Source of the DNA: Polyangium fumosum
Lineage (GTDB): Bacteria; Myxococcota_A; Polyangia; Polyangiales; Polyangiaceae
Assembly: GCF_005144585.1 (NCBI RefSeq)
Contig: NZ_SSMQ01000084.1
Coordinates: 1-55,579 of the forward strand
DNA length: 55,579 bases
Direction of reading: 5' to 3'
The first letter of the stretch is position 1. Each line of letters starts with the position of its first letter. The notes beneath the pieces are model-generated. The model ran no database searches. It was not told where the DNA came from and saw nothing but the letters and a program-made list of their open reading frames with translations. A program made the translations under genes and the position numbers. Below are positions 13,259 through 17,029 of the stretch, in pieces.

Positions 13259-13938
13259 CCCGGCGGGCGGCGCTCTTCGCGCTGGCCCTCGCCGCCCTGA
13301 CCGCCCCGGCCGTGACCGTGCGCGCGGAGCCGCCGAAGACCCCGGCGGCCCTGCCGACGAGAAACGCAGTCGTCGCGCTGGAGGGCAAGCAGGCCGTCCT
13401 CAGCGTGCCCTTCCGCGACGTGGTCGACGGGGAGATCGAGAAGAAGCTCTCGAGCGGTTTGCCCACGGTGATCGTGCTCCGCGCCTGGGTGTTCCGCGAC
13501 GGCGGCACCGAGCCCGTCGCGCTCACGGCGAAGACGTGCCGCGTCGTCTACGACCTTTGGGACGAGGTCTTCCGCCTGCAGATCACGCAGCCGGGCGGGC
13601 TCGTCGATACGGTCGCCGTCAACATCGAGGGCGTCTTGCGCCAGTGTGCCGAGGCCCGGAAGCTGCGCTTGATCGAGCGATCTCAGCTCGACGACAACGG
13701 CCGGTACTTCGTGGCCGGGCTCGTCGAGGTGAACCCGATCAGCCAGGAGACCCAGGATCGCATCAAGCGCTGGGTGACACGCCCGAACGGCTCGGCCGCG
13801 ATCGGGCCGGGCGACTCGCTCTTCGGATCGTTCGTGGGTCTCTTCGTCGCGCGGATCGGCGACGCGGATCGGAAGCTCGCGTTCCGGACGCAGGTGTTTG
13901 CACCGCCGAACCCGCCGCCGCCCGAGAAGAAGCCGTAG
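13255..13938 (+). CDS. DUF4390-like secreted protein
   Basis: Protein of 227 residues with a signal peptide (MTRRAALFALALAALTAPAVTVRA). The mature part follows the pattern of DUF4390: LSVPFRDVVDGEIEKKLSSGLPTVIVLRAWVFRDG, then CRVVYDLWDEVFRLQI and later YFVAGLVEVNPIS. A short Pro-rich tail ends the protein. The ATG overlaps the stop of the Omp85-like gene, so translation is coupled and the two products probably work at the same envelope site. The family's biochemical role is not established. Confidence 0.75.
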   Translation: MTRRAALFALALAALTAPAVTVRAEPPKTPAALPTRNAVVALEGKQAVLSVPFRDVVDGEIEKKLSSGLPTVIVLRAWVFRDGGTEPVALTAKTCRVVYDLWDEVFRLQITQPGGLVDTVAVNIEGVLRQCAEARKLRLIERSQLDDNGRYFVAGLVEVNPISQETQDRIKRWVTRPNGSAAIGPGDSLFGSFVGLFVARIGDADRKLAFRTQVFAPPNPPPPEKKP

Positions 13939-13980
13939 GCGTGAGGCCGGGCGCGGCCGTCGCTTCGACGTGAAACGATC

Positions 13981-16227
13981 TCAAGCGCAGAGCGCTTCGA
14001 GCTCGGGCTCGGGTGGCGTCGCCGCGAGCAGCGCCTCGGCGGCCTCGTTGCCTTCGCGCACGACGGCTTCGAACGCGCTGCGGAGCTTCGACTTCGTGCG
14101 CGCTTCGAGCTGCCGCATGCGCTCGCGCGAGACGCCGAGGCGGCGGCCGAGATCCGCGAGGCTCACCTCGTCGTCGTCCGAGAGCAGCCGCTCCTCCACG
14201 ATGAGCCGCTCGCGTGGATCGAGCGCCTTCCACACGTGGTCCACCACGCCGCGAACGATCGCGTCGCGCTCCGCGCTCGCCGTGAGGTGCTCAGGATCCG
14301 ACGACGGATCGCGCAGCATCTCGAGCAACGTCGGCCCGCCCTCGGTTCGCGCCTGCACGTCGAGCGAGGTGTCGCGATACGCGACCCGCTGCGACATCGA
14401 TCGGATCGTGTCCTCCGTCGTCTGGAACCGGGTCGCGAGCAGCGCGTCGATCGAGGCGTCGCCCTCGCCGAGCTGCATTTCGAGCTTGGCCCGCTCACGC
14501 CGCAGCCGGAAAAACGTGCGCGACACGAGCGGACCCGTCCCGCCGCCGACGATGCTCCATTCGCGGAGCAAGTGGTCCACGATATAGGCGCGGATCCAGT
14601 AGATCGCGTACGTCTTGAAGCGCAGGTTGCGCGACGGCTCGAACCGTCGGACCGCTTCGAGCAGGCCGAGGTTGCCCTCCTCCACGAGGTCGGAGAGCTG
14701 CATGCCGTAACCTCGGTACTGCGCGGCCACCTTCACGACGAATTGCAGGTGGCTCTCCACGAGCGTATTCGCGGCCGCGTGATCGCCCTCGCGCCGGTAC
14801 CGCCAGGCGAGCTCGAGCTCGGTCTCGCGATCGAGCGCCTGGTACCGCTGGATCGCCGCACGGTAGGCCCCGAACGGAGACTGCGCCGCCGGGCTCGAAC
14901 CGAGGCCCTCGGGCCGCGGCTTGCGGGCGGCCCCGTCAGGGCTCGATGCTTTTGGGGCGAGGTGGCTCCGCGAGCGCGGATCGGTGTCCAGCGGTGGATT
15001 CGCGGAGAGTGGAGGCTCGGTCGTGCGCTCGCCGCGCGGCGCCCCGAAGACGTGCTCCTCGGGCACGCGCGTCGGCGCGGCGCCGTCGAGGTGGAGCATG
15101 GCGCGGTAGATGAATCCGCGCGTCTTTTTCTTGTGACCTCCAAGGATCGGCTGGATCGTGTTCGGGCTCGTGGCGTAGCCGAACGCCTCGACCTCGCGCG
15201 AGATGCGGATCGCGAGCTTGCGCATCGTCATGCCCGGGTTCTCGGCCACGTGCTTGCGGGCGAGCTCGGCGATGGGCGCGGCCTTCACCCAGGCGAGATC
15301 CAGCTCGACGCCCGTGGACGACGCGTCCTTCGCGGCGGGCGCCTCGATCACGGCGGGCGCCGCGTCTCCGCGCAGGATCGACTCGATCGCCCTCGACATC
15401 GCATGCCGCACGCGACGCGCGCGCCCATCGACCAGCTTCTGCACGTGCGGCAGGCCGATCACGATCCCTCGCTCGGCGAGCCGCTCCTTGAGCAGGAGCG
15501 CGAGCCTGCGTGACGACGGCTCCTTGTGCTCGACCTTCCACGCCTTCGCGAGCTCGTGGATCCGGCGCGCGCTCTCGAAGACCCGGCCCTCCTGCGCGCC
15601 GAGGATCTCGCGTGACATCGCGTCGATGCGCGCCTCGGCGTCCGCCGACGACGTCACGCCGTCGAGGCGCAGGAGCGCGAAGAGCGCGTCCTGGATCTCG
15701 CGCCGCACGAGCCTCTGCTTGCCGGCGAGGATGCTCTGGAGCGAGTCGACGTTGAGGCGGATCCCGCTCCGCTCGAGCTCCTCGCGCAGGCGAAAGGCGA
15801 GCGCGCGCTTCGATCGCTCGGGGTGCAGGTAGAGCCAGAGCTGGGCGAGCGGCAGCATCCGCTCGCAAGCGATGTACGTGGGCGCCGTGGCCGCGGACGC
15901 GGCCGCGAGCCCGGCCTCGGCGAGGGCCCGCTCGACCGCGACGATCGCGTCCTCGCCTCCGGCCTCGGCGATCGCCTCGTGCAGCGCGCGGTCGACCTCG
16001 GGCGGCACCGTCGCGACGGCGCCCGAGATCTGCCGTTTCAGCGTGCGCAGGTGGTAGCGGATCCCGCGCCGCGCGAGTCGATCCCGCAGGTCCCGCGCGA
16101 TCGCTTCACGCGAGAGGTGCGTGTTTCGTTGCAAGTGAAGGGCAGCCGCAGCGCGAAACGCGGCGCCCGGGATCCGTTCGGGCGTCCCTGCCATCCCCGC
16201 CGCCGGCATCGTCACGCTCTTTTCCAC
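13981..16227 (-). CDS. Sigma-32-like factor with four N-terminal repeats
   Basis: RNA polymerase sigma factor of 748 residues; RpoH-type factors are about 290. Residues 450-725 are the sigma core: region 2 (FVVKVAAQYRGYGMQLSDLV, EEGNLGLLEAVRRF, FKTYAIYWIRAYI), an RpoH-box-like segment (SRTFFRLRRERAKLEMQ) and region 4 (DPRERLIVEERLL, LADLGRRLGVSRERMRQLE). Residues 24-380 contain four ~62-residue repeats (26-86, 125-186, 222-285, 317-380) sharing an LA-x2-LR-x2-L-x3-GI core and a T-x-Q-x-IL-x-GK segment; they look like helix-turn-helix modules (inference). A Pro-rich linker (381-450) separates the halves. GTG start with GGAGGT five bases upstream. Confidence 0.9.
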   Translation of the reverse strand: MEKSVTMPAAGMAGTPERIPGAAFRAAAALHLQRNTHLSREAIARDLRDRLARRGIRYHLRTLKRQISGAVATVPPEVDRALHEAIAEAGGEDAIVAVERALAEAGLAAASAATAPTYIACERMLPLAQLWLYLHPERSKRALAFRLREELERSGIRLNVDSLQSILAGKQRLVRREIQDALFALLRLDGVTSSADAEARIDAMSREILGAQEGRVFESARRIHELAKAWKVEHKEPSSRRLALLLKERLAERGIVIGLPHVQKLVDGRARRVRHAMSRAIESILRGDAAPAVIEAPAAKDASSTGVELDLAWVKAAPIAELARKHVAENPGMTMRKLAIRISREVEAFGYATSPNTIQPILGGHKKKTRGFIYRAMLHLDGAAPTRVPEEHVFGAPRGERTTEPPLSANPPLDTDPRSRSHLAPKASSPDGAARKPRPEGLGSSPAAQSPFGAYRAAIQRYQALDRETELELAWRYRREGDHAAANTLVESHLQFVVKVAAQYRGYGMQLSDLVEEGNLGLLEAVRRFEPSRNLRFKTYAIYWIRAYIVDHLLREWSIVGGGTGPLVSRTFFRLRRERAKLEMQLGEGDASIDALLATRFQTTEDTIRSMSQRVAYRDTSLDVQARTEGGPTLLEMLRDPSSDPEHLTASAERDAIVRGVVDHVWKALDPRERLIVEERLLSDDDEVSLADLGRRLGVSRERMRQLEARTKSKLRSAFEAVVREGNEAAEALLAATPPEPELEALCA

Positions 16228-16283
16228 GACCGACCTCCGTGCTCTCGCCGGCGCCCACGCGCCGATCGTCCCCGTGCAGAACG

Positions 16284-16388
16284 CTAGACAAACATCGCAA
16301 CATCACGTCAACATTGAACAAAGACTGACGGACACTCCGTACCTGTGTCAAGTCGGATTTTGTCCAACCTTACCTAACATTGGACAAA
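16284..16388. promoter_or_regulatory. Repeated TTGGACAAA-type motifs between the sigma-factor and siroheme genes
   Basis: The divergent gap 16228-16423 is strikingly AT-richer than its surroundings. It holds a perfect 9-bp inverted repeat TTTGTCCAA (16359-16367) / TTGGACAAA (16380-16388) with a 12-bp spacer, a near copy TTGAACAAA (16314-16322), and a weaker copy TAGACAAAC (about 16285). It looks like a multi-site operator serving one or both divergent genes. Confidence 0.5.
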
Positions 16389-16423
16389 CAATCGACAACA
16401 AGGACCTGTGGTAAACGGAGTTC

Positions 16424-17029
16424 GTGCGGTACTTGCCGGTCGAAGTCGATGTGCAGGGGCGCCTGGCGCTCGTGGTCGGGGCGAGCGCGGAAGTCGTGCC
16501 CAAGGTGGAGCGGCTGCTCGCCGCGGGTGCGCGGGTCGTCGTCGTCGCGCCGGGGGAGATCGATCCGGCGATCGAGGCGCTTGCGGCCGAGGGGCGGATC
16601 GAGTTGCAGCGGAGGGAGCCGTCCGTGGGCGATGTCGACGGCAAGGCGATCGTCTTCGTGGCCACGTCGGAGGACAGCCGCGCGGCGCCGTTTCACGCCC
16701 GCGGGCTCGCGGAGGGGCGGCTCGTGTGCACGCTCGACAGGCCCGAACGGTCGACGTTCGTGAACCCGGCGGTCGCTCGGGCCCACGGCCTCACGATGAC
16801 GTTCGCGACCGGCGGCACGAGCCCGGGGGTGGTGCGGCGCATCCGCGAGGACCTGGAAGCGCTCTTCGGCGATCCGCGGTTCGGGCGGTTCCTCGGGGCG
16901 CTCGAAGGCCTCCGGGCCCGGCTGCCGCGGGGGGAGCGCGCGGCCCGGATGGCCGAGGCCGTGAAGGGGTTTGCTTTGGATGCGACGCTTCGTTTTCCCG
17001 CGTGGGTCGAGCGGGGCGAGGAGCCCTGA
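16424..17029 (+). CDS. Precorrin-2 dehydrogenase / sirohydrochlorin ferrochelatase (CysG-N / Met8p type)
   Basis: Cytosolic enzyme of sirohaem synthesis, oxidising precorrin-2 with NAD and inserting iron. The 201 residues follow the CysG N-terminal domain: an NAD-binding fold (GRLALVVGASAEVVPKVERLLAAGARVVVVAP), an IVFVATSED strand, the conserved segment LVCTLDRPERSTFVNPAVARAHGLTM and the signature FATGGTSPGVVRRIREDLE. The C-terminal helices match in length. The Gly-rich loop reads GASAE instead of the common GGGxVA. Start GTG with GGAG just upstream. It stands alone here, with no uroporphyrinogen methyltransferase domain, and is divergent from the sigma factor. Confidence 0.88.
   Translation: MRYLPVEVDVQGRLALVVGASAEVVPKVERLLAAGARVVVVAPGEIDPAIEALAAEGRIELQRREPSVGDVDGKAIVFVATSEDSRAAPFHARGLAEGRLVCTLDRPERSTFVNPAVARAHGLTMTFATGGTSPGVVRRIREDLEALFGDPRFGRFLGALEGLRARLPRGERAARMAEAVKGFALDATLRFPAWVERGEEP

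Follow-up and report, generated by a model that had tools for sequence, protein, structure and literature searches.

What would a sigma factor do with 446 residues placed ahead of its core? The question is raised by a gene for a 748-residue protein in the soil bacterium Polyangium fumosum (Table 1). By the window we mean the whole 55.6-kb stretch of DNA analyzed, which is one entire contig of a 13 Mb genome assembled in 201 contigs. The ribosome-binding-like sequence GGAGGT (16233 to 16238) lies 5 bases before the GTG start of the gene and is present here and in five related loci. A first, sequence-only reading had placed a complete sigma-32-like core in the C-terminal part of the protein, and profile searches bear this out. 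The NCBIfam RpoH model aligns end to end, with residues 453 to 720 covering model positions 4 to 269 of 270, and the Pfam models Sigma70_r2 (66.2 bits, cut-off 24) and Sigma70_r4 (36.9 bits, cut-off 24.1) both match the window protein, as does the NCBIfam sigma70-ECF superfamily model (96.9 bits, cut-off 42.9). With regions 2 and 4 above curated cut-offs, the protein is a member of the sigma-70 superfamily. The RpoH cut-offs themselves are not reached (TIGR02392, 236.2 bits against 323.1; PRK06596, 234.9 against 241), and the core is sigma-32-like, not RpoH proper. The likeness to RpoH/sigma-32 thus lies in the end-to-end alignment of residues 447 to 721, at 236 bits; the difference lies in a score below the equivalog cut-off and in the residues that precede the core, where the RpoH model has 270 positions in all. 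The nearest paralogue of the sigma core in the same genome is a plain 303-codon frame with 47% identity, which points to a duplicated RpoH-like gene as the probable origin of the fusion.

Other features of the window were recorded along the way. ARAGORN calls a tRNA-Ser (cga) at 14601 to 14691 on the minus strand, inside the sigma gene; this is probably a false call, since the Rfam tRNA model is silent there at its gathering score. Four tRNA genes (Thr, Gly, Tyr, Thr) occupy 350 to 891 on the minus strand, just upstream of and on the same strand as a gene at the window's left end whose start, judged by eye, resembles that of EF-Tu. The protein of the convergent neighbour gene matched no Pfam family.

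Table 1. Features of the sigma gene and its upstream DNA, in window coordinates
Feature	Position	Strand	Basis or remark
Four-unit-array sigma factor gene, 748 aa	13981..16227	-	GTG start at 16227
Repeat unit R1, residues 19-90	15958..16173	-	Self-alignment, profiles, predicted structure
Repeat unit R2, residues 121-194	15646..15867	-	Self-alignment, profiles, predicted structure
Repeat unit R3, residues 217-290	15358..15579	-	Self-alignment, profiles, predicted structure
Repeat unit R4, residues 313-384	15076..15291	-	Self-alignment, profiles, predicted structure
Linker, residues 385-446	14890..15075	-	Mostly predicted disordered (pLDDT <50 at 397-445)
Sigma-32-like core, residues 447-721	14065..14889	-	NCBIfam RpoH model and paralogue search
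Sigma region 2, residues 489-557	14557..14763	-	Pfam Sigma70_r2
Sigma region 4, residues 668-716	14080..14226	-	Pfam Sigma70_r4
Motif copy A, TTTGTCCAATGTT	16376..16388	-	Candidate site
Motif copy B, inverted, TTTGTCCAACCTT	16359..16371	+	Candidate site
Motif copy C, TTTGTTCAATGTT	16310..16322	-	Candidate site
Motif copy D, TTTGTCTAGCGTT	16280..16292	-	Candidate site
Tandem 11-bp direct repeat TnnACA-N5-TnnACA, overlapping copy A	16381..16397	+	Only one in the 55.6-kb window

Four repeat units and their predicted fold

The part ahead of the core had been described as four related units, a description that stands or falls with their self-similarity. Five of the six unit pairs stand out in pairwise alignment: out of 2000 shuffles, none reached the observed score for pairs 1-2, 2-3 and 2-4, two did for pair 1-3 and three for pair 3-4. 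Pair 1-4 does not stand out (1374 of 2000). Profiles of each unit class, scored against the other classes, shuffles and 444 decoy ORFs, mostly cross-detect. On the window protein the R2 profile finds R3 (E = 1.7e-9), R4 (1.2e-7) and R1 (3.2e-5), with its best shuffle at 0.0088, and R2 is itself found by the R3 profile (2.5e-14) and the R1 profile (7.5e-8). The R4 profile misses R1 (E = 60) and the R1 profile reaches R4 at E = 0.022 against 0.044 for the best shuffle; as judged by these alignments, R1 and R4 are alike only through R2 and R3. The four units therefore hold, whereas the length of about 62 residues first given to them does not: about 73 residues per unit align, with gaps only at the ends, and unit starts are 96 to 102 residues apart. 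A segment of the form T-x-Q-x-IL-x-G-K/H, said to be common to the units, is present in R2 and R4 and fits R1 and R3 only loosely.

Modeled by AlphaFold2 as a whole (eight sequences), the array has a mean pLDDT of 73.7, with unit blocks mostly at 80 to 95, and a pTM of 0.32, so that the relative placement of the units is not defined by the model. In all predicted units the helices come in one order, helices 3 and 4 are separated by a short strand, and in units 2 to 4 another strand precedes helix 1. R2 alone (residues 117 to 194, 31 unit sequences) is predicted as a helix-turn-helix (HTH) at pLDDT 94.6 and pTM 0.83. Foldseek against the PDB gave no match with E <0.001 for the whole array or a single unit. 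When the candidates were realigned, the top rows included phage CI repressors, EspR, SinR, HigA and POU-specific domains, at Z values of about 4-6 (highest 6.3 with the array, 5.8 with a single unit; none reaches 8). Most single-unit rows have an rmsd of 2-4 A, and the array rows cover all four units, unit 2 with the fewest. Common helical arrangements also reach this Z range, and the likeness is therefore suggestive and not proof: in predicted fold the units most resemble the HTH domains of XRE/Cro-C1/lambda-repressor-like and POU-specific proteins. Such regulators are the nearest solved folds among those listed; the window protein differs from them in having four units in tandem, fused to a sigma factor, with no family model above its cut-off.

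Family scans give little to set beside this. Pfam returned nothing for residues 1 to 446 at E up to 1, and no HTH family model exceeded its cut-off in the arrays scanned. Sub-threshold matches were HTH_12 in R1 of the window protein when its full length was scanned (residues 35 to 65; E 0.14, 12.6 bits against 21.4) and in the L014 array (15.5 bits against the same 21.4), and HTH_31 in the third unit of a relative, the bin.255 protein (E = 3.6e-4, 21.2 bits against 27). A sequence match to the DEP domain of DEPTOR (E down to 2.3e-4) spans only 29 residues, too short to use.

The units are basic (net +4 to +8 each, pI 10.2-11.5) and the spacers acidic (-2 to -3). Across six Polyangium sequences, invariant columns make up 33/34 of helix 3 and 28/30 of the turn that follows it, as against 44/55 in helix 1, 43/56 in helix 2, 17/24 in the loop between helices 2 and 3, and 32/49 in helix 4; spacers have 40/83 and unassigned columns 23/35. 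Helix 3 and its turn together (61/64) exceed helices 1, 2 and 4 with the 2-3 loop (136/184; Fisher p = 1.2e-4, the 35 unassigned columns, 23 of them invariant, being excluded). A putative binding of operator DNA through helix 3 has charge and conservation in its favour; the conservation of helix 3 could instead serve folding. That the repeats are HTH-like had been proposed with structure prediction as the check; the prediction indeed gives HTH-like units, with the single unit at high confidence, and fold comparison, the basic charge and the conservation peak at helix 3 and its turn agree with it. The sequence-only reading is supported to this extent; the DNA or RNA binding, promoter selection and autoinhibition that it ascribed to the repeats are putative.

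We propose that the HTH-like array, joined to the sigma-32-like factor by a flexible linker, would bind DNA sequence-specifically and that this binding would hold the sigma factor, and hence RNA polymerase, near particular promoters. We see about an even chance that the protein is such a sigma with a built-in activator, its DNA-binding array tethering sigma and holoenzyme close to chosen promoters. Lambda CI, which belongs to the matched fold class, activates by contact with sigma region 4, so that joining a CI-like domain to a sigma factor would be a plausible step; the structure of lambda cI with sigma region 4, 1rio, is a row among the fold matches of the array.

The same features bear on two other readings. 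The array may serve in autoinhibition or sensing, in the manner of region 1.1 or of the regulatory extensions fused to some ECF sigmas, and block the sigma factor until a signal arrives. ECF sigmas are described with N- and C-terminal extensions in such roles (PMC8999054). The long linker would likewise permit fold-back, but family scans show no ligand-binding or anti-sigma domain, and the most conserved helix is the one with which the matched folds read DNA. Sigma region 1.1 is acidic, whereas the array is strongly basic (pI 10.3 for residues 1 to 384), and we consider autoinhibition improbable. Contact with RNA or protein rather than DNA, by PPR-like helical repeats or protein-contact HTH units, strikes us as more doubtful again: designer PPR proteins come first in the Foldseek results for the whole array (E 0.11) and give a weak sequence match (E 0.21), but the PPR fold alignments (TM 0.10, rmsd 24) amount to no real superposition, and most matches of a single unit, themselves weak, are to DNA-binding HTH domains.

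The array in relatives, with and without a sigma core

With residues 1-446 as query, 8 of the 183 genomes of the order match: its own, five congeners and two MAGs of other genera, CSMAG_262 (G115) and bin.255 (G125). All five other Polyangium genomes searched, among them y55x31 (G149), 6x1 (G150) and 15x6 (G151), have the array, at 79-94% identity to that of the window, and the MAG arrays are 37-38% identical to it. No second copy was found in the own genome. With the alignment as query, 377 genomes drawn from the phylum gave eight matches at E <=0.01, five in Polyangium and three weak ones, which the unit profile reaches at a best E of 0.003. A scan of GTDB contigs yielded 33 pattern stretches and from these five relatives (three Polyangium records, CSMAG_262 and bin.255). 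None of the 37 pattern stretches on viral contigs encodes a relative; 97 phage records match, and the 10 listed start at residue 380 or later, which places their starts in the last residues of R4, the linker or the sigma core. PHROGs gave one match, at E 0.38.

Several further matches were set aside. A protein-kinase match of R4 in the own genome (E 0.73) was read as chance. Weak single-unit matches in other genomes, more numerous than their E-values predict, were treated in the same way; the 12 such loci inspected are mostly non-coding or antisense-looking frames, and two are integrase-like.

The full fusion of array and sigma core is found in four of the five other Polyangium genomes, in open frames of 767-812 codons. 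In Polyangium sp. 6x1, some 30 bases in the interior of a contig (L020:4836-4866) stand in place of about 1.1 kb (equivalent to 13934-15058 of the window), so that most of the linker and the entire sigma core are missing. The array frame there is open and keeps R1 to R4, with every residue of helix 3 and the turn identical to the window's, and the best sigma-core match in that assembly is a 46-47% paralogue common to all six Polyangium genomes. The loss looks like a natural deletion, but it is possible that it is an assembly error. The array of 6x1 also has a new C-terminal tail, part of which is read antisense to the neighbouring gene. The array region is under purifying selection in the five intact genes (pairwise dN/dS 0.18-0.36); values toward the 6x1 array are 0.35-0.46.

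The two MAGs depart from this pattern in different ways. CSMAG_262 has an uninterrupted 862-codon frame (L016:154-2739) with a four-unit array and an RpoD-like sigma, a fusion known from this one MAG contig of 11.7 kb. The best NCBIfam match of its sigma is RpoD PRK05658, at 361 bits against a cut-off of 555, and every listed RpoD cut-off is missed. Since this protein joins the array to an RpoD-like sigma, the array is paired with two kinds of sigma factor. In bin.255, three units lie in a 325-codon frame with no match to an NCBIfam or sigma model; its first unit is not found beyond shuffle level by the R2 and R3 profiles. Searching for the repeat away from a sigma domain had been suggested at the outset, and both the four-unit array of 6x1 and the three units of bin.255 answer that search. 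The array is thus a module, found on two sigma kinds and also without a sigma.

As 6x1 has lost the sigma half and bin.255 has units with no sigma model match, the array may work without sigma, and the two cases favour some such role for it. A stronger form of this idea, in which the array is chiefly a repressor or DNA anchor, possibly autoregulatory, with the sigma half as an optional output, we think unlikely, if less so than autoinhibition. It would account for the retention in 6x1 of all four units, unchanged in helix 3 and turn after the sigma core had gone, and for the three-unit frame of bin.255. It sits less well with the uninterrupted sigma gene that contains the array in CSMAG_262 and in every one of the six Polyangium genomes except 6x1, or with the somewhat higher dN/dS toward 6x1, which looks as if constraint had relaxed. 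The conserved motif directly upstream of the gene bears on it as well.

The DNA upstream of the gene

Between the sigma gene and a divergent gene at 16424, which matches the cysG N-terminal domain above cut-off, are four copies of TTTGTnYARnGTT or near (A to D, Table 1). Copy D overlaps TCTAGC (16283-16288), the candidate -10 element of a promoter assigned by eye, whose candidate -35, TTGACG (16306-16311), is 17 bp away. All six Polyangium genomes have A and C 66 bp apart and C and D 30 bp apart, five of them have a recognisable B, and each has at least three copies scoring at least 15. TTTGT-N5-GTT occurs 2-3 times per upstream region, against a shuffle mean of 0.02-0.04 (largest 2). Upstream of the divergent-gene homologue in non-Polyangium genomes, the motif is absent from all 24 loci (best score 8.0). 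These are the loci examined among 58 non-Polyangium genomes that match the cysG-like gene, which is 55-62% identical in nine and 30-42% in fifteen. As the scoring matrix was trained on Polyangium sites, only the absences are independent. Genome-wide, TTTGTNCAANGTT with at most one mismatch occurs at 11 places, three of them in this upstream region, and the reversed-pattern control at 17, so that the total is not above chance and the clustering alone is remarkable.

The exact C-D geometry recurs at one further site in the genome, L182:5284-5326, upstream of a redoxin/YtfJ-like gene (L182:5373-5918) that adjoins a MerR/B12-binding gene, crtI and a squalene/phytoene-synthase gene; allowing up to three mismatches, the geometry is found at 14 places genome-wide versus 4 for the reversed pattern. 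This second site is conserved in five of six Polyangium genomes and partly in 6x1. In three of 24 non-Polyangium loci (G070, G109 and G130), none of them from the eight genomes with the array, the redoxin homologue likewise has an AAC-N5-ACAAA element upstream, whose likeness to the motif may partly be that of a -10 box (TACAAA).

Copy A has another possible reader. CarH operators consist of tandem 11-bp repeats, 5'-nnnnTnnACAn-3' (PMC9304148), and the upstream DNA has this form. The tandem recurs at this position in five of the six Polyangium genomes, with the n positions free, and three stand in tandem in 6x1; shuffled upstream regions hold a TnnACA-N5-TnnACA tandem in 16-70 of 2000 cases. 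The own genome encodes a protein with MerR and B12-binding parts (L182:5935-6897), which at 121 bits falls short of the CarH equivalog (400). Given the CarH operator form of copy A, the sigma gene may be under a CarH-like, light- and B12-responsive repressor of the MerR type, a putative lead drawn from operator form.

We had considered the array itself as the binder of A to D. Because a like element lies upstream of redoxin in genomes that lack the array, and because copy A has the CarH form, we no longer claim this; A to D may be bound by a regulator other than the array. Upstream of the array genes of CSMAG_262 and bin.255, the motif is not above chance, since 202 and 338 of 1000 shuffles, respectively, did as well as the best site. 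Nine bases of copy D, TTTGTCTAG, appear inverted upstream of the CSMAG_262 gene and were not counted as evidence. For the reading of the array as chiefly a repressor or anchor, the conserved four-copy motif directly upstream of the gene in Polyangium counts in favour, but the motif is only putative as the site of the array.

A sigma factor with a possible built-in activator

Two further known groups come close to the layout of the window protein. ECF sigmas with fused parts also carry an extra regulatory part in the sigma chain; the parts named in the portion of PMC8999054 used here are anti-sigma, membrane, YCII- or SnoaL-like, and an HTH array is not among them. MzaA, the sigma of the MZA anti-phage system, is likewise a large sigma-70-family protein with a long N-terminal part (model of 726 positions). 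The MzaA model NF041931 gives the window core 104.2 bits and the CSMAG_262 protein 270 bits against a cut-off of 800, which places both outside the family. MzaA is the only PADLOC match of the window protein, at 74.8 bits and on the sigma core (residues 485 to 718 only), with the array unmatched. The sequence-only reading knew of no described sigma with such a layout, and the literature searched gave neither a sigma factor with tandem HTH repeats nor a characterised homologue with the same N-terminus; most subscription journals lay outside this search, so the absence is not proof.

Bacterial activators normally touch sigma or RNA polymerase as separate proteins. If the tethering reading is true, activator and sigma would here be joined in one chain through a four-domain DNA reader of its own. 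We put forward more tentatively a fuller version, in which the array reads a long upstream site, delivers its own sigma and sets promoter choice beside or instead of the -35 and -10 elements, and has been joined at least twice to different sigma classes, sigma-32-like in Polyangium and RpoD-like in a related MAG. The same array on two sigma classes would amount to a natural domain-swap experiment. Such a protein would show cleanly whether tethering is enough by itself to select promoters, and could be used directly in the construction of orthogonal promoters.
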